NCBI GenBank assembly: GCA_022729705.1
Contig: DZAX01000002.1
Location: 1-53,276, forward strand
Source of the DNA: Helicobacter cetorum
GTDB taxonomy: Bacteria > Campylobacterota > Campylobacteria > Campylobacterales > UBA6016
Direction of reading: 5' to 3'
DNA: 53,276 nucleotides
Shown: piece after piece, positions 4,474-19,944 of the stretch
How positions within the stretch are numbered: the stretch's first letter is position 1
Layout of the letters: each line of letters opens with the position of its first letter
Made by a program: the position numbers and the translations under genes
Notes under the pieces: generated by a model
What the model saw: the letters and a program-made list of their open reading frames with translations, nothing else
Told to the model about the DNA's origin: nothing
Databases searched by the model: none

Positions 4474-6477
4474 ATGATTGAAAAATATAAAACAAATAAT
4501 GTCAAACTAACAGTTTCAAGTTTATATAAAGAAGCAAAAAGAGTGGAGGTTTTGGAGTACTTTCTCAAAACATACGAGCTTTATGAGAGGCTTTTTGAGA
4601 CGCTTGCGGATGACTCTGTGTTTTATGAGAGACCCGAGGCGCTTCGACACCCAATTATCTTTTATTTTGGGCACACCGCCGCTTTTTATATCAACAAGCT
4701 TGTTTTGGCAAAAAAAGTAGAGCGTATCAATCCATATTTGGAGTCTATCTTTGCCATTGGCGTGGATGAGATGAGCTGGGATGATCTCAATCAAGCCAGA
4801 TATGAGTGGCCAAGCGTAGAGGAGACTAGGGCGTATCGTCTGAGCGTCAAAAACGCCGTTGCGGAGTTTATCAAAAATGAGCCGCTTGGTGAGAGGATAG
4901 ATTGGGATAGCTCCTTTTGGGTGGCGCTTATGGGGTGTGAGCATGAGCGCATACATCTTGAGACAAGCTCTGTGCTTATACGCCAACTGCCTATCGACAA
5001 AGTCAGGGAGAGTTCTTTTTTTGAGATTTGCGATATGAGCGGCGAAGCGTCAAAAAACGAGCTTTTGCAAGTAAGTGGCGGCGTTGTAAAGCTTGGCAAG
5101 CAAAAAAAAGATGAGTTTTATGGTTGGGACAACGAATATGGCTCTTTTGAGACTCGCTTAGAAGAGTTCAAGGCTTCAAAATATCTAGTTTCAAATGGTG
5201 AGTTTTTGGAGTTTGTAAAGAGCGGCGGATATGACGAGCCCGGTTTTTGGAGCGAAGAGGGGAGGGCGTGGCTGGAGTACAAAAAGCCGCGACACCCTAC
5301 TTTTTGGAGCGTCCATAACGGCGGATACAGATATAGAGCTTTGACAAAAGAGATAGAGCTTCCTCTAAATTGGCCTGTGGACGTAAACTACCTTGAAGCA
5401 AAAGCATATTGTGATTGGCTAAGCAAAAAAGAGGGCAAAAGCCTGAGACTTCCAAGCGAGGCGGAGTGGTATAGGCTTGCGGATATGTGCGGCGCAAAAG
5501 AGGAGCTGGGGGAAGCGAATATAAATTTGCAATATGCGTCGTCAACGCCTGTGGATATGCACGCCCATGGCGATTTTTTTGACGTTTGGGGCAATGTATG
5601 GCAGTGGAGCGAGACGCCGATTTTTGCGTTTGAGGGATTTGAGACTCATCCGATTTATGATGATTTTACAGCCCCGACGTTTGACGGTAGGCACAATCTT
5701 ATCAAAGGCGGCTCTTTTATCTCTACAGGCAACGAAGCGCTTTTATCCGCTAGATATGCATTTAGAAGACACTTTTTTCAGCACGCTGGATTTCGGTATG
5801 TGGAGAGTCAAAATTCGCTTGAAAACCAAAACAGAGATTTTGAGAGCGATGCGACTATTGCCGAGTATCTGGAGTTTCACTATGGTGCGGAGTATCCTGG
5901 AGTCGCAAGTTTTTACGCCAAAGTCGCCGATACGATACTGCAATTTTGCGAACCATCAAAACGTAGATACGCCTTAGAGCTTGGATGCGCGGTGGGCAGA
6001 CTCTCTTTTGAGCTTGCTAAGAGCTTTGAGGAGACTACGGGAATAGATTTTTCTGCTAGATTTATCAAAAACGCTATTTTGATGAAAGAGAGCGGAGTAT
6101 TGCGCTACAAGATAAAAACGGATAGCGGCGTATATGAAAATAGAGAGGTTTGTGCAAACGAGCTTGGTATTGATGAGGACGCTCGCGCTAGGACGCAGTT
6201 TTGGCAGGGCGACGCTTGCAATCTAAAGCCGCGCTTTAGGGGGTATGACCTAATAGTAGCGTCAAATCAGCCGGAAAAACTTTATGACTCTATAAAATTT
6301 ATGCAGAGTGTGCATGATAGGTTAAACGATGAGGGCGTATTTGTATTGGCGGCTCCTTTGGTTGGCGTAAATTTACCAGACGAGACCCTATTTGCCGACT
6401 TTACGTCGATATCCGAACCGATTGATGTTGAGTTTGCCAGTATGAAATTGAGATTATCTTATTTTAGGAAAAAATAG
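4474..6477 (+). CDS. ovoA: Bifunctional 5-histidylcysteine sulfoxide synthase / mercaptohistidine methyltransferase
   Basis: This 667-residue protein has the full OvoA architecture. The DinB-like N-terminal part carries the iron-binding HERIHLE (H157, H161, E163) plus H67 in FGHTAAFY. A formylglycine-enzyme/EgtB-like domain follows at about 200-450, with RLPSEAEWYRLAD, GNVWQWSETP and FRRHFFQHAGFRYV. From about residue 495 there is a SAM methyltransferase domain (ALELGCAVGRLSFELA). OvoA joins Cys to His using O2 and later N-methylates the mercaptohistidine to give ovothiol A, a thiol antioxidant. The C-S lyase partner OvoB is not in the window. The first codons are AT-rich like the cassette upstream, and the ribosome site is weak. 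Confidence 0.93.
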   Translation: MIEKYKTNNVKLTVSSLYKEAKRVEVLEYFLKTYELYERLFETLADDSVFYERPEALRHPIIFYFGHTAAFYINKLVLAKKVERINPYLESIFAIGVDEMSWDDLNQARYEWPSVEETRAYRLSVKNAVAEFIKNEPLGERIDWDSSFWVALMGCEHERIHLETSSVLIRQLPIDKVRESSFFEICDMSGEASKNELLQVSGGVVKLGKQKKDEFYGWDNEYGSFETRLEEFKASKYLVSNGEFLEFVKSGGYDEPGFWSEEGRAWLEYKKPRHPTFWSVHNGGYRYRALTKEIELPLNWPVDVNYLEAKAYCDWLSKKEGKSLRLPSEAEWYRLADMCGAKEELGEANINLQYASSTPVDMHAHGDFFDVWGNVWQWSETPIFAFEGFETHPIYDDFTAPTFDGRHNLIKGGSFISTGNEALLSARYAFRRHFFQHAGFRYVESQNSLENQNRDFESDATIAEYLEFHYGAEYPGVASFYAKVADTILQFCEPSKRRYALELGCAVGRLSFELAKSFEETTGIDFSARFIKNAILMKESGVLRYKIKTDSGVYENREVCANELGIDEDARARTQFWQGDACNLKPRFRGYDLIVASNQPEKLYDSIKFMQSVHDRLNDEGVFVLAAPLVGVNLPDETLFADFTSISEPIDVEFASMKLRLSYFRKK

Positions 6478-6527: not shown

Positions 6528-6541
6528 TTGACCTTAGTCAA
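6528..6541 (+). promoter_or_regulatory. FNR-type box upstream of nrdD
   Basis: TTGACCTTAGTCAA is a symmetric TTGAC-N4-GTCAA site, close to the Crp/Fnr consensus TTGAT-N4-ATCAA. Its centre is 42 bases before the nrdD ATG. If used as a class II activator site (-41.5), transcription would start at about 6576, practically on the ATG at 6577; no Shine-Dalgarno is visible there, so a leaderless transcript is possible. Confidence 0.55.
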
Positions 6542-6576
6542 AGCTAAATTTGTGTTTTTTTGGTTTACTACGCTCT

Positions 6577-8694
6577 ATGAAAAAAGAGAAACATAGACAA
6601 ATTACTATCCTAAAAAGAAATGGCGCTAGAGCCGCTTTTGAGCCTTATAAAATAGAAGACGCAATAATAAAAGCCTTTGAGAGCGAGAGGGAACCATATG
6701 ACAAATCCGTATTTGAGTATGTGCTTGCAAAAATTGGCGATAATGATAACATAGCTGTAGAGGATATTCAAGACGCTATCGAAAAAGCTCTTTTTGAGCT
6801 TGGCTACTTCTCTGTCATGCGCTCTTTTATGCTTTATCGGCACACGCATAAGATGCAAAGAGAGCATATTCTCGGACTAAACGACGATACGACATATATA
6901 GACTCGACTCAAAGCGTAGAAGAGTACATAAACGGATACGATTGGCGTATAAGCGCAAATGCAAACACAGGTTACTCAAACGCCGGACTTATAAACAATC
7001 TTGCCGGCAAAGTAATAGCGAACTATTGGCTTGATAAAGTGTATAGTAAAGAAGAGGGATATGCCCATAGAAACGGCGATTATCACATACATGACCTTGA
7101 TTGTCTTACGGGATACTGTGCTGGGTGGAGTTTGCGAGCACTTCTAAACGAGGGCTTCAATGGTGTGCGCGGTAGAGTGGACAGCAGTCCTCCTAAACAT
7201 TTTAGGGAAGCTTTGGGGCAGATGGCAAATTTTTTGGGTATTTTGCAAAGCGAATGGGCGGGGGCTCAAGCGTTTAGCTCGTTTGATACATATCTTGCCC
7301 CATATGTATTTAAAGATGCTCTTAGCTATGACGAGGTTAAAAAGGCGATTAGGAGTTTTATATACAACCTAAATGTTCCCGCTCGTTGGGGACAGTCGCC
7401 TTTTACGAATGTAACCATAGACTGGACGGTTCCGGAGGATTTGGCGCTCCAATCTCCAACAAGCGCCAATCGTCCGCTTTTTGAAGGACTCTCTCGTCTT
7501 GATGACTTAGCTGTGGAGCGAGGAGCTGCAAACGCCGCAGATCTTAGGTACGCGCATTTTTTACCGGAAATGCAAATGATAAATAGGGCGTACTATGAGA
7601 TAATGACTGAGGGCGATAAGACGGGGCAACCTTTTACCTTTCCAATTCCTACTGTAAATATTACTGAAGATTTTGATTGGTATGGCGTGAATACCGATGT
7701 ACTATTTGAGAATACGGCGAAGATAGGCTCTAGCTACTTTCAGAACTTTATCGGAAGTCAGTATATCAAAGACCCTGAGACGGGAGAAAGAAAACTCAAC
7801 GACGCCGCTTATAAACCAGGACATGTGAGAAGTATGTGTTGCAGGTTGCAACTAGATTTAAGAGAGCTTCTAAAGCGAGGGAACGGATTGTTTGGAAGCG
7901 CCGAAATGACAGGCTCTATCGGCGTTGTAACTATCAATATGGCGAGGCTTGGTTATTTACACAAAGGGGATAGAGCCGCTTTGCAGACGGAGCTTGACAG
8001 GCTTTTGCATCTTGCGTATTCGACGCTTGAGAAGAAAAGGCGATTTATTGAAAAGATGTTTGATAGAGGGCTTTATCCGTATACAAAAAGGTATCTACCG
8101 CATTTTAAAAACCACTTTTCGACTATCGGTGTCAATGGCGTGAACGAAATGATACGAAATTTTACAGACGACGAGTATGATATTTCAAACCCAAAAGGGA
8201 GTCTGTTTGCAACTTGGATACTTGAGTTTATACGAGAGAGATTAACAGTATTTCAAGAAAAAAGCGGCAATCTATACAATTTGGAGGCTACGCCTGCCGA
8301 GGGAACCACATATAGATTTGCCAAAGAGGATAAAAAGCGCTTTTTGGACATTATCCAAGCCGGAGGAGGTGAAAAGATATATTATACCAATAGCACTCAG
8401 TTGCCTGCGGGGTATACCGAAGACCCATATGAGGCCTTGAGTATGCAAGATGATCTTCAGTGCAAATATACGGGCGGAACTGTTTTGCACTTGTATATGA
8501 ACGAGAGAATAAGTTCGCCAAACGCCTGCCGTATATTTGTTAAAAAGGTAATGGAAAATTTCAAGCTACCATATATAACAGTGACGCCGCTATTTTCAGT
8601 ATGTCAAAAGCACGGCTATCTAATGGGTGAGCATGAGTATTGTCCGCATTGCGACGAAGAGATAATCCAAAACCATCAAAAGGAGACGACATGA
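6577..8694 (+). CDS. nrdD: Anaerobic (class III) ribonucleoside-triphosphate reductase, main subunit without glycyl-radical tail
   Basis: The protein (705 residues from the ATG at 6577; a TTG at 6550 is less likely) begins with an ATP-cone allosteric domain (ITILKRNGARAAFEPYKIED) and continues as NrdD: GYCAGWSLRALL near residue 178, SMCCRLQLDLRELL near 418 and GSIGVVTINMARLGYL. It ends in a Cys-rich zinc site (VCQKHGYL near 675, CPHC near 688) and then stops, without the RVxGY glycyl-radical loop that normally follows in the same chain. That loop is encoded by the next small gene, whose ATG overlaps this stop (ATGA). It reduces ribonucleotides to deoxyribonucleotides without oxygen. An FNR-like box lies just upstream. 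Confidence 0.93.
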   Translation: MKKEKHRQITILKRNGARAAFEPYKIEDAIIKAFESEREPYDKSVFEYVLAKIGDNDNIAVEDIQDAIEKALFELGYFSVMRSFMLYRHTHKMQREHILGLNDDTTYIDSTQSVEEYINGYDWRISANANTGYSNAGLINNLAGKVIANYWLDKVYSKEEGYAHRNGDYHIHDLDCLTGYCAGWSLRALLNEGFNGVRGRVDSSPPKHFREALGQMANFLGILQSEWAGAQAFSSFDTYLAPYVFKDALSYDEVKKAIRSFIYNLNVPARWGQSPFTNVTIDWTVPEDLALQSPTSANRPLFEGLSRLDDLAVERGAANAADLRYAHFLPEMQMINRAYYEIMTEGDKTGQPFTFPIPTVNITEDFDWYGVNTDVLFENTAKIGSSYFQNFIGSQYIKDPETGERKLNDAAYKPGHVRSMCCRLQLDLRELLKRGNGLFGSAEMTGSIGVVTINMARLGYLHKGDRAALQTELDRLLHLAYSTLEKKRRFIEKMFDRGLYPYTKRYLPHFKNHFSTIGVNGVNEMIRNFTDDEYDISNPKGSLFATWILEFIRERLTVFQEKSGNLYNLEATPAEGTTYRFAKEDKKRFLDIIQAGGGEKIYYTNSTQLPAGYTEDPYEALSMQDDLQCKYTGGTVLHLYMNERISSPNACRIFVKKVMENFKLPYITVTPLFSVCQKHGYLMGEHEYCPHCDEEIIQNHQKETT

Positions 8695-8855
8695 AAAGAG
8701 AAGAGATTTTAGAGCAAAACAGCGCCAAACGTACTAAATGTATCGTGTATACTCGGGTAATGGGGTATCATAGACCAGTTGAGAGCTTCAACTTAGGTAA
8801 AAAAGGCGAGCATAAAGAGCGTAGACAATTTGTAGAGAGAGGTTGTGAGCGTTAG
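8691..8855 (+). CDS. Separate glycyl-radical domain peptide of the class III ribonucleotide reductase
   Basis: This 54-residue gene encodes only the piece missing from NrdD: RTKCIVYTRVMGYHRPVESF, then NLGKKGEHKERRQFVE, matching the C-terminal glycyl-radical loop of anaerobic reductases (RVxGY-RPV-N-GK-EF-R). The radical would sit on Gly25 (codon 8763-8765). The ATG overlaps the nrdD stop and is preceded by a strong AAGGAG eight bases upstream, so it looks like a genuine gene and not a sequencing frameshift. Its 3' end overlaps the activase start by 11 bases. It must assemble with NrdD in trans, in the way the YfiD/GrcA spare part serves pyruvate formate-lyase. Confidence 0.8.
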   Translation: MKREEILEQNSAKRTKCIVYTRVMGYHRPVESFNLGKKGEHKERRQFVERGCER

Positions 8856-9559: not shown

Positions 9560-9601
9560 TTGATTCATATCAACAACAATAATTTGATTTTGCTCTATAA
9601 T
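9560..9601 (+). promoter_or_regulatory. FNR-dependent class II promoter: perfect box and -10
   Basis: TTGATTCATATCAA at 9560-9573 is a perfect TTGAT-N4-ATCAA FNR box. TATAAT lies at 9596-9601, 29.5 bases from the box centre, which puts the box centre at -41.5, the standard class II activator position. It points at the gene at 9643. Confidence 0.75.
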
Positions 9602-9642: not shown

Positions 9643-10089
9643 ATGACTATTATTCTTTTTATTCATATTGTAGCTGCGTGCGCTTGGGTCGGTGGAAGTA
9701 TTTTGCTGTTTGGTCTAGGTGTTTTTTTGAAAGGTGAAGAGAGGCAAAAGAGTGTGTATGCGGTTATAGGTCCGTTTTATGGATATTTTGAGACTGTATG
9801 GCTTATTCTACTTTTGTTATCGGGAGGCGCTTTATTGTATGGCTATGGGTTCTCGGAACTTGTTGGACGCTTTGATACCGAACTTGCTATGGCGATTACG
9901 GTAAAACTTATCCTTGTGTCTATGCTGACCGCCGCAACAATTATACATCTAATAGTCGCCTTTAAGACGCATAACAAAACTAGAACAATAAAGCAGACGA
10001 TTATATCAAGAGCTGGATCTTTGGCGATTTTTATTCTAAATTTTGCCGTTATTTGGTACGCAATGTTGCTACGAACATATATTTATTAA
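9643..10089 (+). CDS. Four-helix CopD-like membrane protein
   Basis: A 148-residue protein with four hydrophobic segments, at about 1-25, 45-68, 82-105 and 122-145. The first contains FIHIVAACAWVGGSILLFGL, typical of the CopD / DUF2269-like superfamily, in which histidines in helices may bind haem or metal. It is the first gene of the cluster behind the FNR-type promoter, so expression without oxygen is expected. Exact function is unknown; a haem-containing electron-transfer or accessory subunit is a reasonable guess. Confidence 0.75.
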   Translation: MTIILFIHIVAACAWVGGSILLFGLGVFLKGEERQKSVYAVIGPFYGYFETVWLILLLLSGGALLYGYGFSELVGRFDTELAMAITVKLILVSMLTAATIIHLIVAFKTHNKTRTIKQTIISRAGSLAIFILNFAVIWYAMLLRTYIY

Positions 10090-10103
10090 CAGGAGATTAC
10101 AAA

Positions 10104-10451
10104 ATGATAAAGATACCAGACGATGCTAAAAAAATAGAAGTTGAGGGTTCAACCGTAGACTTTTTTGAATTCAATCTAGGAGAAGATGTATACTTTGCGT
10201 TTGATACATCCAGATGCGGACCACCGGATCCAATGGTAAACGCCATGGCAGGATTAAGACTGCTAGATGCGGCAAATAAAAAACTTTTAATGATAAACCA
10301 TAAAAGTCCGGGCGGATTGTTTAGTAAAATTGGAGACGATTTTGAATCAATCGTTACGGAGAGAGAAGATGGTCTTGTTGAGATAGTTTTCAGCTTTAAA
10401 GGCGATGTAGATTTGAATGATCCAAAATACTGCTCAAGTTGTCACGGTTAA
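10104..10451 (+). CDS. DUF2249-like small protein ending in a CXXCH motif
   Basis: From the ATG at 10104, with AGGAG eight bases before it, this is a 115-residue protein. Residues about 38-98 resemble the DUF2249 / TusA-like fold: PPDPMVNAMAGLRLLDA, then KLLMINHKSPGGL, then an acidic strand pair. It ends in YCSSCHG, so CSSCH occupies residues 110-114 at the very C-terminus. There is no export signal, so ordinary periplasmic haem c attachment is not expected; the motif may bind metal or an Fe-S cluster, or act in sulfur relay. It lies between two membrane-protein genes of the FNR-controlled cluster. Confidence 0.7.
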   Translation: MIKIPDDAKKIEVEGSTVDFFEFNLGEDVYFAFDTSRCGPPDPMVNAMAGLRLLDAANKKLLMINHKSPGGLFSKIGDDFESIVTEREDGLVEIVFSFKGDVDLNDPKYCSSCHG

Positions 10452-10457
10452 TTTTTT

Positions 10458-11687
10458 ATGAAAATAACTAGTGATTTTGCGCCGCCCCTTTCCACTATTG
10501 CGCCGTTTTTTTTAATAGGGGCGGTCTTTTATGTTTTTGCTTGCGTAGCTCTTTTTGGGATAGACATAAAAGCTTCATACGCAGATTTTGCCGTTGTCGG
10601 ATGGGTGCATCTGTTTTTAGTCGGCTTTGTGATGACTACTATATTGGGGGCGATGGGGCAGCTTATTCCGGTGGTTCTTGAGAAAGGTCACTCTTTTGTG
10701 CAATTTTTTACAATAATACCTTATTTATTGTTGCTTGGAATTTTTTTATTAATGAGTGGTTTTTGGCTAAATCCCGCTTTTTTGCCGTATGGCGGACTTA
10801 TTGTCATGATGGCTATTACGATATATTTGACGGACGCTTTTGCGACTTTGCTAAAAGCCGAGCGGTCATCTTTGTCTGTTAGGACTATGGGCGTTAGTCA
10901 TCTTTTTTTAATTGCCGCCCTTATCGTCGGATTTTTGATGACTCTCTTTTTTAGCTATGGTATTCATATAAATATCAAAGCCGCCCTTTTGACACATATA
11001 GCTTTTAGCGTCGGTGGATATGTGTTTTTGGTGATTGTGGGTGTCGCCGTTATTTTATTGCCAATGTTTGGACTAGCTCACGGCTTCGACGAAAAAGCTG
11101 CTTGGCGCTCTTTTTGGTCTTTAGCCGTCGGTATTTTGCTGATTTGTATTTTTAGTTTTTTTGATTTTTATTTTGGCGTAACTGCTGGTTTTTTACTGGT
11201 TTTGGCGTCTATGTCATTTTTTGGCTATCAGGTGGCGCTAATACATTCAAAACGGGTTCGTAAAGAAAGAGATATATGGTATCGCTCGCTTATCGTGTCG
11301 TTTAGCTCTTTAGCTTTGTCTCTTGTTTTTATGGCATTGGCCGCCGTAAGCGGAGATGAAAAACTTATAAAACTTTCAGGCTTTATTTTTGGTTTGGGTT
11401 TTCTCTCTTTTTTGATCTCGGGACACCTTTATAAGATTATTCCATTTTTGGTTTGGTTTGAAAGATTTAGTCCGCTTGTTGGTAAGCAAAAAATTCCGAT
11501 GCTTCATCAAATGGTTCCAAAAAAAGCTGCTGAATATCAGCTTTGGTTTGGCTTATTTGGGCTTATTTTATGCTCCCTTGGGCTATGGTTTGAAAATCAG
11601 ATAATATGGTTTAGCGGGGCGTCGTTTCTCTGTGTCAGCTCTCTATTTTTGCTCGGCGGCACGCTTTGGATGATAAGATTTAGATAA
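10458..11687 (+). CDS. Polytopic membrane protein, haem-copper oxidase subunit I / NnrS-like
   Basis: A 409-residue protein with about 12 hydrophobic helices. Conserved-looking histidines lie in helices or at their ends: GWVHLFLVGFVMTTILGAMG (H51), GVSHLFLIAA, LLTHIAFSVGGYVFLVIVGV and SGHLYKIIPFLVW. The HLxxxGF-ILGAMxQLIPVV pattern is seen in oxidase-like membrane proteins found in nitrate- or NO-responsive clusters. It lacks enough canonical metal ligands to call it a real terminal oxidase. It sits in the FNR-controlled cluster just before a DUF59 gene. Role inferred: haem-containing anaerobic respiration or NO handling. Confidence 0.65.
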   Translation: MKITSDFAPPLSTIAPFFLIGAVFYVFACVALFGIDIKASYADFAVVGWVHLFLVGFVMTTILGAMGQLIPVVLEKGHSFVQFFTIIPYLLLLGIFLLMSGFWLNPAFLPYGGLIVMMAITIYLTDAFATLLKAERSSLSVRTMGVSHLFLIAALIVGFLMTLFFSYGIHINIKAALLTHIAFSVGGYVFLVIVGVAVILLPMFGLAHGFDEKAAWRSFWSLAVGILLICIFSFFDFYFGVTAGFLLVLASMSFFGYQVALIHSKRVRKERDIWYRSLIVSFSSLALSLVFMALAAVSGDEKLIKLSGFIFGLGFLSFLISGHLYKIIPFLVWFERFSPLVGKQKIPMLHQMVPKKAAEYQLWFGLFGLILCSLGLWFENQIIWFSGASFLCVSSLFLLGGTLWMIRFR

Positions 11688-11697
11688 AGGAATTAAT

Positions 11698-12003
11698 ATG
11701 GAAAAAATAACCCAAGAGCTCGCATATGCGGCGATAGCGACCGTTATAGACCCCGAAGTCGGCTTTAATTTGGTTGAGCTCGGACTTATATATGATGTGG
11801 CGATAGATGATAAAAATGATGTTAAAGTGACAATGACGCTCTCAACTAGAGGATGTCCTTTGCATCAAGCGATGATGGAGTGGGTAAGAGAGGCGGTCTT
11901 AAGACTTGAGGGTGTCTCTTCGTGCGATGTGGAAGTAGTGTGGGAGCCGGCGTGGAATATATCTATGGCGGCAGATAACGTAAAGCAGGCTTTGGGCGGC
12001 TGA
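11698..12003 (+). CDS. DUF59 / MIP18-family metal-sulfur cluster assembly protein
   Basis: A 101-residue protein with the family core: TVIDPEVGFNLVELGLIYDV near residue 17, MTLSTRGCPLHQAMMEWVRE near 49 with the reactive cysteine, and a C-terminal VVWEPAWN. Such proteins (SufT, PaaD, MIP18) help load Fe-S clusters onto target proteins. It follows AAGGAATTA spacing and ends the operon begun at 9643, so its client is probably one of the redox proteins encoded beside it. Confidence 0.85.
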   Translation: MEKITQELAYAAIATVIDPEVGFNLVELGLIYDVAIDDKNDVKVTMTLSTRGCPLHQAMMEWVREAVLRLEGVSSCDVEVVWEPAWNISMAADNVKQALGG

Positions 12004-12020
12004 CCTTTTAAAAATAAGAA

Positions 12021-12061
12021 TTGATTTCGGTCAACAAAAAACTTTATAATTTTGCTATAGT
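12021..12061 (+). promoter_or_regulatory. FNR-type box and -10 upstream of the Crp/Fnr gene
   Basis: TTGATTTCGGTCAA at 12021-12034 matches TTGAT-N4-ATCAA with one mismatch in the second half. TATAGT at 12056-12061 lies 28.5 bases from its centre, close to class II spacing. A TATAAT at 12045-12050 is an alternative -10. The downstream gene encodes a Crp/Fnr regulator, so self-regulation is plausible. Confidence 0.55.
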
Positions 12062-12098
12062 ATCTTGGTGATTTTTTTCATGAAAAAGGAGTAGTGAA

Positions 12099-12749
12099 AT
12101 GCTTGCTATAGCAAAACATTTAAAAAGTGTTTTTTTGTTTTCAGGGTTAAATAAAGATGAGTTGAATAGTTTAGCATTAATTAGTTCTTTTGAAAAATAT
12201 GAAAAAGGTGGCGTATTATTTTACGAGGGCGACCCTTCGGATAAAATCCATATTCTTCTCGATGGTGTCGTAAAAGCTTATAAAACAGATATGAAGGGAA
12301 ACGAGATAGTTCTTCACTATTTTTACCCAAATTCCCTTATAGCGGAAATGGCGAATTTCCACCATATCGCATTCCCAGCGACAGCCGAGTTTGAGATTGG
12401 CGGTTCGGCTCTAAAGATAAATTATGAAGTGTTTGAGAGGGAATTTCTTAAAAACCCTACGATTTCGTTTGGGCTAATAAAAAGCTTATCTCAGAAAGTA
12501 AAATATTTAGAAAATGTAATAACTCAACAGCTAACTTTAGGGTCAACTTCTAGGGTTGCAAAATTTCTTTATGAAAACGGGGATAGTTATCAAGCGGTCA
12601 AACGATATAAAATTGCTACTTTACTAAACATCACCCCTGAGACTCTCTCTAGAATTTTTAAAAAACTAAAGCAATTAGAGCTCATAAGTGATGATGGGAA
12701 AAACTTTTGTATTGTTGACAAAGAAGGTCTAAGAGAGTTGTTCTCTTAG
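12099..12749 (+). CDS. Crp/Fnr-family transcription regulator
   Basis: A 216-residue regulator: a cyclic-nucleotide-binding-type fold at about 15-125, a dimer helix, and a winged helix with the recognition segment TPETLSRIFKKLKQ near residue 180. The E-SR pattern suits TTGAT-like half-sites, as found in this region. It lacks an N-terminal cysteine cluster, so it is not an oxygen-labile Fe-S FNR; a DNR/NssR-type haem or NO sensor, or redox input by another route, is possible. A good AAGGAG precedes the ATG. It is closely similar along its whole length to the regulator at 19291, so the two are paralogues. Confidence 0.9.
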   Translation: MLAIAKHLKSVFLFSGLNKDELNSLALISSFEKYEKGGVLFYEGDPSDKIHILLDGVVKAYKTDMKGNEIVLHYFYPNSLIAEMANFHHIAFPATAEFEIGGSALKINYEVFEREFLKNPTISFGLIKSLSQKVKYLENVITQQLTLGSTSRVAKFLYENGDSYQAVKRYKIATLLNITPETLSRIFKKLKQLELISDDGKNFCIVDKEGLRELFS

Positions 12750-12888
12750 ACTAGTCGTTTAGCTTCCCTTTGATTGGCTGAATTGAATCAACGAAGCTTA
12801 CGACATCCTCAACTATATCCTTTTAATTAGGACTTTTTTTGCCCTATTTATTTTTGGCGAAAATTAGCACCGTAAAACTTGATTCTCC

Positions 12889-12928
12889 TTGACAATAATC
12901 AATATTAAATTTTATATTTTTCGATACT
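12889..12928 (+). promoter_or_regulatory. FNR-type box upstream of the DUF438-like gene
   Basis: TTGACAATAATCAA at 12889-12902 is a TTGAC-N4-ATCAA site. GATACT at 12923-12928 could be the -10, about 28 bases from the box centre, again near class II geometry. The start codon of the next gene lies 30 bases further on. Confidence 0.5.
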
Positions 12929-12957
12929 GTTCACCAAAAATAAATGAAGGTATTTGA

Positions 12958-13251
12958 GTGAGTGAATTTTTTACAGACAAGCATGCGGAAGAATTTGAAG
13001 AGAATGCTCTAAGCCGTTATCCAGACGGGCATCCGGTAAAAGTATATTTGAAGGAGAATTTTTTTACAAGACGACTTATTAAACAAATAAATAAGCTTGA
13101 TTTGGAAAATGAATTAGATAAATTTGAGGAACTTTTTTTAAAACTTGCAAAAGTTGAAAAAAGATACGCAAGAAAAGAGAATCAACTTTTTCCATATCTT
13201 GAAAAGTATGGCTGGACTATAATACCCCAAATTATCAAGACAACATTCTAA
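12958..13251 (+). CDS. Short DUF438/hemerythrin-like protein
   Basis: The 97-residue protein matches the helical domain of DUF438-type proteins: a GHPVKVYLKEN block near residue 24, then KRYARKENQLFPYLEKYGW near residue 75 (family pattern HY-RKENLLFPYLE). The usual histidine before the RKEN block is replaced by arginine here, and longer family members add a PAS domain, so this is either a stand-alone form or truncated. The start is a GTG at 12958 with GAAGG seven bases upstream. An FNR-type box precedes it. Possible role in iron/NO handling, inferred from neighbours. Confidence 0.65.
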   Translation: MSEFFTDKHAEEFEENALSRYPDGHPVKVYLKENFFTRRLIKQINKLDLENELDKFEELFLKLAKVEKRYARKENQLFPYLEKYGWTIIPQIIKTTF

Positions 13252-13281: not shown

Positions 13282-13437
13282 TTACGCTATATTTTCAATT
13301 TGTTTATTGAAATTTTCATCATTTATTTTTAAACTATCATAATAAACATTCATAGGTTTTTTGTAATCTAAAGTTTCATGAAATCTTTTGTTGTTATAAA
13401 ATTCAATATACTCTTTTACATCATCTTTTAAACTCAT
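13282..13437 (-). pseudogene. IS3-family transposase OrfB, C-terminal remnant
   Basis: The minus strand encodes about 51 residues with DVKEYIEFYNNKRFHETLDY followed by KKPMNVYYDSL, the end of the integrase core of IS3-family OrfB proteins (YIxFYNxxRxHxxLxYxxP). The frame is closed just upstream and no OrfA or catalytic DDE residues remain nearby. Dead fragment between the DUF438-like gene and recR. Confidence 0.75.
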
Positions 13438-18904: not shown

Positions 18905-19294
18905 ATGCACAGTTTTGAAGATCCGGTATACCAGATAAGCATAGTAGCCGAGCTTCTCGGTATACACCCGCAGACGCTAAGACACTATGAGAGGGAGGGG
19001 TTAGTCGTTCCCTCTCGTACCAACGGCAAAATACGGGTTTATTCCCAAAAAGATATTGACGATTTGAAGCTAATTTTGAGACTTACAAGAGAGCTTGGCG
19101 TAAACCTAGCGGGAGTAGATGTGGTGTTGCAACTAAAAAATCAGGTGCGAGAGTTGCAAAAAGAGATAGATCTTTTAAGACGAGACAAAAATGCGCTAGA
19201 GACCGAAAGTATTGTGCCAAAAAATAGACAAGTGATTATTAAGAAAAGTAGCTATAAAGTCATACTGTTTGAGACAAATAAAGGCTTAATATGA
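18905..19294 (+). CDS. hspR: MerR-family heat-shock repressor HspR
   Basis: A 129-residue MerR-type protein: winged helix in the first 70 residues (IHPQTLRHYEREGLVVPSRT), then a coiled-coil (QLKNQVRELQKEIDLLRRD). Its location directly behind cbpA is the classic hspR position. HspR represses chaperone operons, with DnaK as likely co-repressor. AAGGAAATAG precedes the ATG. Its stop overlaps the start of a Crp/Fnr regulator by four bases, which is an unusual addition to a heat-shock operon. Confidence 0.92.
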   Translation: MHSFEDPVYQISIVAELLGIHPQTLRHYEREGLVVPSRTNGKIRVYSQKDIDDLKLILRLTRELGVNLAGVDVVLQLKNQVRELQKEIDLLRRDKNALETESIVPKNRQVIIKKSSYKVILFETNKGLI

Positions 19295-19944
19295 GCGAGC
19301 TAACAAAGCATCTAAAAAACGTTTTTCTCTTTTCGCAGCTAAATGAGAAAGAACTAAACAAGCTAGAGGCTATTAGTCGTTTTGAAAAATATGGCAAATC
19401 AAACGCACTCTTTTATGAGGGTGACCCGTCTGATAAAATGCACATTTTAATAGACGGAATTGTAAAAACATATAAAACCGATATGAAAGACAACGAAATA
19501 GTTCTGCACTACTTTCAACCAATTTCGCTAATAGCAGAGATGGCAAATTTCCATCATATTCCATTCCCCGCCACTTCAGAGTTTGAGACGGATGGAGCCG
19601 TAATAAAAATAGACTATCCTGTTTTTGAAAAAGAGTTTCTCAAAAATCCCGCAGTCTCTTTTGAGATTATAAAAAGTCTTTCGTATAAACTAAAAAATCT
19701 AGAAAATATCATTACTTCACAGTTGACGTTAGATTCGACGTCGCGCGTCGCAAAATTTATTTACGAAAATGGAGAAGAGTATCAAAATGTCAAACGTTAC
19801 AAAATTGCCTCCCTGCTAAATGTCACACCCGAAACATTGTCAAGAGTTTTTAAGAAGCTAAAACAGACGGGGTTTATAAAAGACGACGGTAAAAATTTTT
19901 ATATTATTGATAAAATAGGTCTAGAAAAACTATTTACTGCTTGA
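19291..19944 (+). CDS. Crp/Fnr-family regulator, paralogue of the 12099 gene
   Basis: A 217-residue regulator, nearly colinear with the one at 12099: KYGKSNALFYEGDPSDKMHI in the sensor domain and TPETLSRVFKKLKQ as recognition helix. It too has no N-terminal cysteine cluster. Overlapping hspR by ATGA, it should be made along with the heat-shock repressor, so its level may follow HspR-controlled transcription. The recognition helix is almost identical to that of the paralogue, so both could bind the same FNR-type boxes. Confidence 0.88.
   Translation: MSELTKHLKNVFLFSQLNEKELNKLEAISRFEKYGKSNALFYEGDPSDKMHILIDGIVKTYKTDMKDNEIVLHYFQPISLIAEMANFHHIPFPATSEFETDGAVIKIDYPVFEKEFLKNPAVSFEIIKSLSYKLKNLENIITSQLTLDSTSRVAKFIYENGEEYQNVKRYKIASLLNVTPETLSRVFKKLKQTGFIKDDGKNFYIIDKIGLEKLFTA

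Follow-up and report, generated by a model that had tools for sequence, protein, structure and literature searches.

A conserved triad of DUF2249-like, oxidase-fold and DUF59 proteins in Campylobacterota: a candidate accessory module of nitrogen-oxide respiration

Positions 9643–13251 of a 53,276-nucleotide stretch of campylobacterotal DNA (contig DZAX01000002.1 of assembly GCA_022729705.1, listed as Helicobacter cetorum; the whole stretch is called the window here) carry a run of genes around an oxidase-like membrane protein, and the question that they raise is which of them belong together and what they might do. A preliminary description had read the locus as six open reading frames (ORFs) strung together under FNR-type sites, possibly a self-contained system for handling haem or nitric oxide (NO). 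All six ORFs were present in the source genome (75 contigs, 2.19 Mb) at the positions proposed and every one was on the + strand, but only three of them, encoding a DUF2249-like protein (10104), a protein with 12 transmembrane helices (12-TM; 10458) and a DUF59 protein (11698), were conserved together as a unit; genes are designated here by their first position. Taken as a whole, the triad is best explained, tentatively, as an NO-limiting accessory module of nitrogen-oxide respiration, and the cassette probably helps the cell to cope with NO.

Conservation was investigated in 249 campylobacterotal genomes and, for neighbouring genes counted by tblastn, in a set of 80 named loci from Hydrogenimonas, Sulfurovum, Sulfurimonas, Nitratiruptor, Nitratifractor, Arcobacter and others. 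A 10458-type 12-TM protein was encoded in 106 of the 249 genomes, 12 of which had a distant paralogue only, leaving 94. Among the closest relatives, a DUF2249-like gene lay directly upstream of the 12-TM gene in 29/29 loci and DUF59 was detected directly downstream in 28/29. The same arrangement was found in 77 of 78 (DUF2249-like) and 75 of 79 (DUF59) testable named loci, with both partners adjacent to the 12-TM gene in 72/80. The four-helix gene was present in five of the 80 named triad loci, a Crp gene was nearby in 24, and the hemerythrin-like ORF was present in none. The neighbour counts across these loci therefore identify the conserved unit as DUF2249-like, 12-TM and DUF59 genes; the co-occurrence anticipated for the longer string held for the triad and failed for the hemerythrin-like gene. 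Within the window, the four genes from 9643 to 12003 are likely to form a single operon, since they are on the same strand and separated by gaps of 14, 6 and 10 bases; 12099 (Crp) and 12958 (hemerythrin-like) are each preceded by a palindrome of their own. The triad was not found in the two genomes of the same genus that were examined, one of which was incomplete whilst the other had a distant paralogue only. Many of the same species also possess a parallel cassette in which a paralogue of the 12-TM protein is accompanied by hemerythrin and often by DUF2249.

Neither Pfam nor NCBIfam has a model that covers the 10458 family. PF00115 did not match the window protein and was reached below threshold by three of 20 family members (best E 1.7e-4), and neither the single protein nor a 60-sequence profile retrieved anything relevant when searched by sequence against solved structures. 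An AlphaFold2 model based on an alignment of 60 sequences from the window and related loci (pLDDT 92.1, pTM 0.91) had the complete haem–copper oxidase (HCO) subunit I fold, with 12 TM helices in three pseudo-symmetric units. In Foldseek/VIA-align comparisons, the model aligned with cbb3 CcoN at Z 34.8 (root-mean-square deviation 3.0, 383 residues) and with cNOR at Z 33.1. Compared over its whole length, the family profile gave no significant match to CcoN or NorB, and the comparison was informative only at the level of three repeats. When the profile was cut into thirds, internal repeats were detected (EU1–EU2, E 1.8e-6; EU1–EU3, E 1.4e-6), and these were most like TM9–12 of ccoN (E 8e-5 to 4e-4). 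In the repeat alignments H51 fell on the second His of ccoN TM10 and H180 on the first, which we take to be the ligands of the low-spin and high-spin haem, respectively.

H51 and H180 were the only histidines invariant across Campylobacterota, Thermus, rhizobia and Cupriavidus; H323 was fixed in campylobacterotal orthologues and was Met or Gln elsewhere. The six-ligand set of catalytic HCOs and NO reductases (NORs), consisting of a TM2 His, a TM6 His, a TM7 His-His and a TM10 His pair, was absent, and in the cross-phylum comparison the family had neither a TM7 nor a TM10 His pair and lacked CuB/FeB ligands. Two invariant histidines and no TM7 pair make one haem likely and a catalytic binuclear site unlikely. 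Most probably, the 10458 protein would bind one haem b by way of H51 and H180, which the pseudo-symmetry would place between repeats 1 and 2. The earlier label of an oxidase-like protein is thus apt for the fold, which is common to 10458, CcoN and NorB (Z 33–35), but not for the chemistry, as the CuB/FeB histidines, the TM10 pair and any sequence-family match at the cut-off are missing. In the same way, the statement that no catalytic subunit of a known respiratory enzyme is encoded stands in effect, although 10458 itself has the HCO fold.

NnrS (PF05940) is likewise a 12-TM haem-type membrane protein of NO regulons and occurs in the same denitrification clusters, but its invariant histidines are at positions unlike those of 10458 and the profile similarity is marginal (E 2e-4). 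Identification of 10458 as NnrS was rejected because there was no PF05940 match, the histidine map was different and two separate NnrS copies were present in the genome. The three-EU ‘HCOH’ proteins that Pei et al. reportedly described in 2014 (cited in PMC11218638) are reported to have 12 TM helices in three homologous four-helix units and about two conserved histidines able to bind one haem, and to be linked genomically to DUF2249 and denitrification; the 10458 family may be one of those described. With 12 TM helices, three repeats and two invariant histidines, 10458 fits this description. We judge the module to be an oxidase-fold system of the ‘HCOH’ kind, in a variant that is associated with denitrification and has DUF2249 and DUF59 as partners; the triad with DUF59, the conserved upstream palindrome and the map of invariant histidines are contributed by the present analysis.

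The DUF2249-like nature claimed for 10104 was borne out at profile level (E 2.6e-6 over 64 columns against true DUF2249 proteins) and missed by Pfam, PF10006 giving no match in a single-sequence search and one relative reaching E 0.16. Relatives of 10104 gave sub-threshold matches to TusA, and the CGPPDPM motif lies close to the position of the TusA CPEP motif. A c-type haem, considered for the tail sequence CSSCHG (CxxCH), was rejected because CxxCH was not conserved in relatives and no signal peptide was seen by eye. The DUF59 assignment of 11698 was upheld by a match to PF01883 (FeS_assembly_P) at E 1e-16 and 61.3 bits (cut-off 23.5). Four helices were also found in the 9643 protein, but its proposed likeness to CopD was not confirmed: there was no Pfam CopD match and a fold search returned a generic four-helix bundle only. 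ORF 12958 does have the kinship to DUF438-type hemerythrin-PAS proteins that had been proposed, but it is a decayed 97-amino-acid fragment rather than an intact gene: intact relatives have about 330–395 amino acids, the hemerythrin match was sub-threshold (E 0.025) with no complete HHE domain, and the motif EKHFARKENQLFP of the relatives reads EKRYARKENQLFP in the fragment, with Arg where relatives have His. The IS3-type remnant next to it appears to have truncated the gene and left the promoter site intact.

Relatives outside the phylum were sought by tblastn against plasmids, and 12-TM homologues, carrying the annotation ‘hypothetical protein’, were found in Thermus, Sinorhizobium, Shinella, Mesorhizobium, Rhizobium and Cupriavidus. 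The gene order in Thermus was the nar operon, DrpA, DrpB, a 4-TM COX1-like protein, protoglobin, the 12-TM protein and DUF59. In Sinorhizobium and Shinella it was norCBQD, hemN, DUF2249 and the 12-TM protein, followed by a tandem DUF2249, DUF59 (annotated in Shinella), nnrS, nirK and a regulator, and in Cupriavidus nar, nnrS, hemerythrin, the 12-TM protein and Crp, with nosZ further on. The Thermus module resembles the triad in having DUF2249, a 10458-type protein and DUF59 next to nar, but its run also includes DrpB and protoglobin, whereas the window has one divergent DUF2249-like protein only. The Thermus 4-TM protein (L243:10521–10955, between DrpB and protoglobin) matched only the TM10–11 part of COX1 (E 3.5e-5) and is a single-unit oxidase-like protein. 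COG4309 is assumed here to be the same family as DUF2249. In haloarchaea, DUF2249 proteins have been tied to denitrification and a link between DUF2249 and HCOs has been stated (PMC11218638), whilst COG4309 occurs with nor genes, and a role for it in the function of NO reductase has been suggested (PMC1274295). Literature searches found nothing on the S. meliloti locus tags and nothing joining NnrS with DUF2249.

The FNR-type sites of the preliminary description were confirmed: the pattern TTGAYN4RTCAA occurred as four perfect sites in the 53-kb window compared with 0.30 expected, all at the cluster or nrdD, and the three cluster sites were centred near −41 of a −10-like hexamer, as read by eye. 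The source genome had 28 such sites compared with five for the reversed pattern. These included sites upstream of napA, nosZ, a nor/nir cluster, ccoN and nrdD, and many others that were intragenic and possibly due to chance. Of the 73 named loci that could be tested, 63 had a palindrome in the 350 bp preceding the DUF2249-like gene, compared with about 3.5 expected from local site density and 0 for the control pattern. The 12099 protein, confirmed as Crp/Fnr type, contains one cysteine and consequently lacks the [4Fe-4S] ligand set of FNR, as had been described. Its recognition helix reads ‘ETLSR’, a type expected in the Crp/Fnr family for TTGAT half-sites. In having no Fe-S cysteines, an E-xx-SR helix and, by prediction, TTGAT-N4-ATCAA-type binding sites at nitrogen-oxide genes, it fits the DNR/NnrR type, and it is a candidate activator of the cassette. 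The window encodes another Crp/Fnr-type regulator that closely resembles 12099, at 19291–19944 after DnaJ-like and MerR-like genes; it may be a paralogue that prefers the same sites.

The link to nitrogen oxides and anaerobic regulation that had been suggested was strongly supported by neighbouring genes and by co-occurrence, in addition to the palindromes and the Thermus and rhizobial clusters. In about twenty loci napA followed directly after DUF59, and the triad was preceded by a Crp gene and haem-d1-type genes (NirJ-like radical SAM, CobA-like, siroheme-decarboxylase-like and precorrin-2-dehydrogenase-like, named from sequence motifs rather than by family search); in Sulfurovum-type genomes the triad was placed between haem d1 genes and napAGHB. 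The triad tracked with nosZ (67/76, p 1.7e-28) and NOR (59/70, p 1.8e-21) in the 249 genomes, and with cytochrome cd1 in the close clade (32/36, p 1e-30), all three values being uncorrected for phylogeny. Elsewhere in the source genome, NorBC, a second NOR-like enzyme, NirS and haem d1 genes were found on contig C22, NosZ on C2, NapA on C16 and cbb3 on C49. The same type of site stands in front of nap, nor, nos, ccoN and nrdD, and the idea of a self-contained system is not supported: its core is three genes, and the remaining denitrification machinery lies elsewhere in the genome behind like sites. Two adjacent, divergent NOR-type operons, one NorBC and the other with extra membrane subunits, were observed at L162:3709–8401 of the source genome, with one palindrome at 5960, between them, common to both.

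How the triad might act can be outlined from these features. The 10458 protein would be a catalytically reduced HCO-fold membrane protein of three four-helix repeats with a single haem b at H51/H180 and, lacking a CuB or FeB site, would bind NO or pass electrons or signals rather than reduce O2 or NO. The TusA-like DUF2249 partner and the DUF59 Fe-S factor may act with it on the cytoplasmic side. While Nap, Nir, Nor and Nos are active, the module could sense or buffer NO at the membrane, limiting NO damage, and could help to restore Fe-S or related cofactors that NO has damaged, with a cysteine-less Crp/Fnr-type activator on TTGAYN4RTCAA putatively turning it on together with these enzymes. 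A more specific version, which we consider distinctly unlikely, would have the haem occupy, through H51 and H180, a third pore between repeats 1 and 2 that is empty in known oxidases and NO reductases, with NO sensing coupled to cofactor repair via the TusA-like DUF2249 and DUF59 proteins from Thermus to Campylobacterota. Of the earlier phrase ‘haem or NO-handling system’, the NO and anaerobic link stands, whilst haem binding and NO handling are predictions. Several observations weigh against the proposal. The co-occurrence p values ignore kinship, the genomes not being independent samples; nosZ, NOR and cd1 were all missing from 22 triad genomes, so that there is no strict tie to denitrification; the N-terminal Cys of the 10104 family was not fully conserved; and Campylobacter-type copies adjoined housekeeping genes. 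The 22 genomes fit a general role in nitrate/nitrite respiration or NO better than a role with a single enzyme.

The genetics of Thermus, where DrpA and DrpB (DUF2249) precede the 10458 homologue and DUF59 in the nar cluster and have been tied to denitrification, bear on two other explanations. Deletion of drpAB led to nitrate-independent nar expression (PMC6282519), which would suit a sensor of nitrate or nitrogen oxides, in which recognition of the substrate by the DUF2249-like and membrane proteins governs the Crp/Fnr regulator, the scheme put forward for DrpA/DrpB; DrpB-like DUF1858+DUF2249 genes also flank the triad in some Campylobacterota, and a Crp gene lies near the 24 triads counted above. 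The majority of triads have no Crp gene nearby, however, the Thermus deletions concern drpAB and not the 10458 homologue, and the mutants had little active nitrate reductase although the protein was near-normal (PMC6282519), which points to maturation. A sensor is rated as unlikely. That low activity would instead favour membrane-bound delivery of sulfur or Fe-S for Nap, d1/NOR enzymes or other metalloenzymes, as would the presence of TusA-like DUF2249 and DUF59, the classic parts of sulfur/Fe-S trafficking, the position of the triad directly ahead of napA and the suggested relevance of COG4309 to NO reductase. Against such delivery, which we hold to be unlikely, a haem protein of the HCO fold is not known to take part in it, and many nap-bearing species probably lack the triad.

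The best single correlate of the triad was nosZ, an association that persisted among NOR-negative genomes (p 2e-6), whereas that with NOR was weak among nosZ-negative genomes (p 0.05). As the sulfur source of the CuZ [4Cu:2S] centre of nitrous oxide reductase is generally regarded as unsettled, the triad might be a NosZ-specific accessory that supplies its sulfide. This is improbable, given the 27 triad genomes without nosZ and the retrieved rhizobial and Thermus cassettes, which sit with nor/nirK or nar rather than nos and whose neighbourhoods speak against a NosZ-only role. The full oxidase/NorB fold and the anaerobic co-regulation could also indicate a new terminal reductase with a haem-only site, but with two invariant histidines only, none of them in TM7 or TM10, no cytochrome c subunit in the cassette, and NorBC, the second NOR-like enzyme, NirS, NosZ and cbb3 already in the genome, this is extremely improbable. 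An NO-limiting accessory module of nitrogen-oxide respiration is the reading retained, with the reservations given above. The features of the locus are listed in Table 1.

Table 1. Genes and regulatory sites at the triad locus, in window positions
Feature	Position	Strand	Remarks
Fourth site of the same type as those below	6528..6541	+	Upstream of nrdD; regulon neighbour, outside cassette
Perfect TTGATTCATATCAA palindrome (FNR/DNR-type site)	9560..9573	+	Upstream of operon, about −41 relative to TATAAT 9596–9601
Four-helix membrane protein	9643..10089	+	Optional member; conserved H8, H102, H110
DUF2249-like (TusA-like superfamily) protein, core gene 1	10104..10451	+	CGPPDPM motif; C-terminal Cys113 invariant among relatives
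12-TM haem–copper-oxidase-fold protein, unnamed family, core gene 2	10458..11687	+	Invariant H51 (TM2), H180 (TM6)
DUF59 metal-sulfur cluster assembly factor, core gene 3	11698..12003	+	PF01883 match
TTGATTTCGGTCAA site	12021..12034	+	Upstream of Crp/Fnr gene
Crp/Fnr-family regulator, optional triad neighbour	12099..12749	+	Without Fe-S cysteine set; ‘ETLSR’ recognition helix
TTGACAATAATCAA site	12889..12902	+	Upstream of truncated hemerythrin-like ORF
Hemerythrin-PAS (DUF438-type) 5′ gene fragment, 97 amino acids, pseudogene	12958..13251	+	
IS3-type transposase 3′ remnant (rve_2)	13282..13437	-	Directly after hemerythrin-like fragment

Two further observations concern other genes of the window. 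The anaerobic ribonucleotide reductase is split, with nrdD at 6550–8694 and the glycyl-radical tail (TRVMGYHRPVESFN...) on a 54-amino-acid ORF at 8692–8855 that overlaps the nrdD stop; the tail was found at a similar distance after the NrdD C-terminal piece in loci L031, L034, L042, L071 and L075. Positions 4474–6477 encode the ovothiol synthase OvoA (5-histidylcysteine sulfoxide synthase and methyltransferase), both NCBIfam domains being above the cut-off.

A 2019 review gave no FNR-type orthologue for Campylobacterota and described respiration in Sulfurimonas denitrificans as mostly constitutive (PMC6682613). In a phylum reviewed as FNR-less, the sites described here point to a Crp/Fnr-type regulon that includes napA, nosZ, nor/nir, ccoN and nrdD. 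DUF2249 proteins and oxidase-like ‘hypothetical proteins’ recur in denitrification clusters without an assigned function, and a minimal unit of DUF2249-like, 12-TM and DUF59 proteins is now defined for them, with a fold, two invariant histidines and a conserved promoter site.

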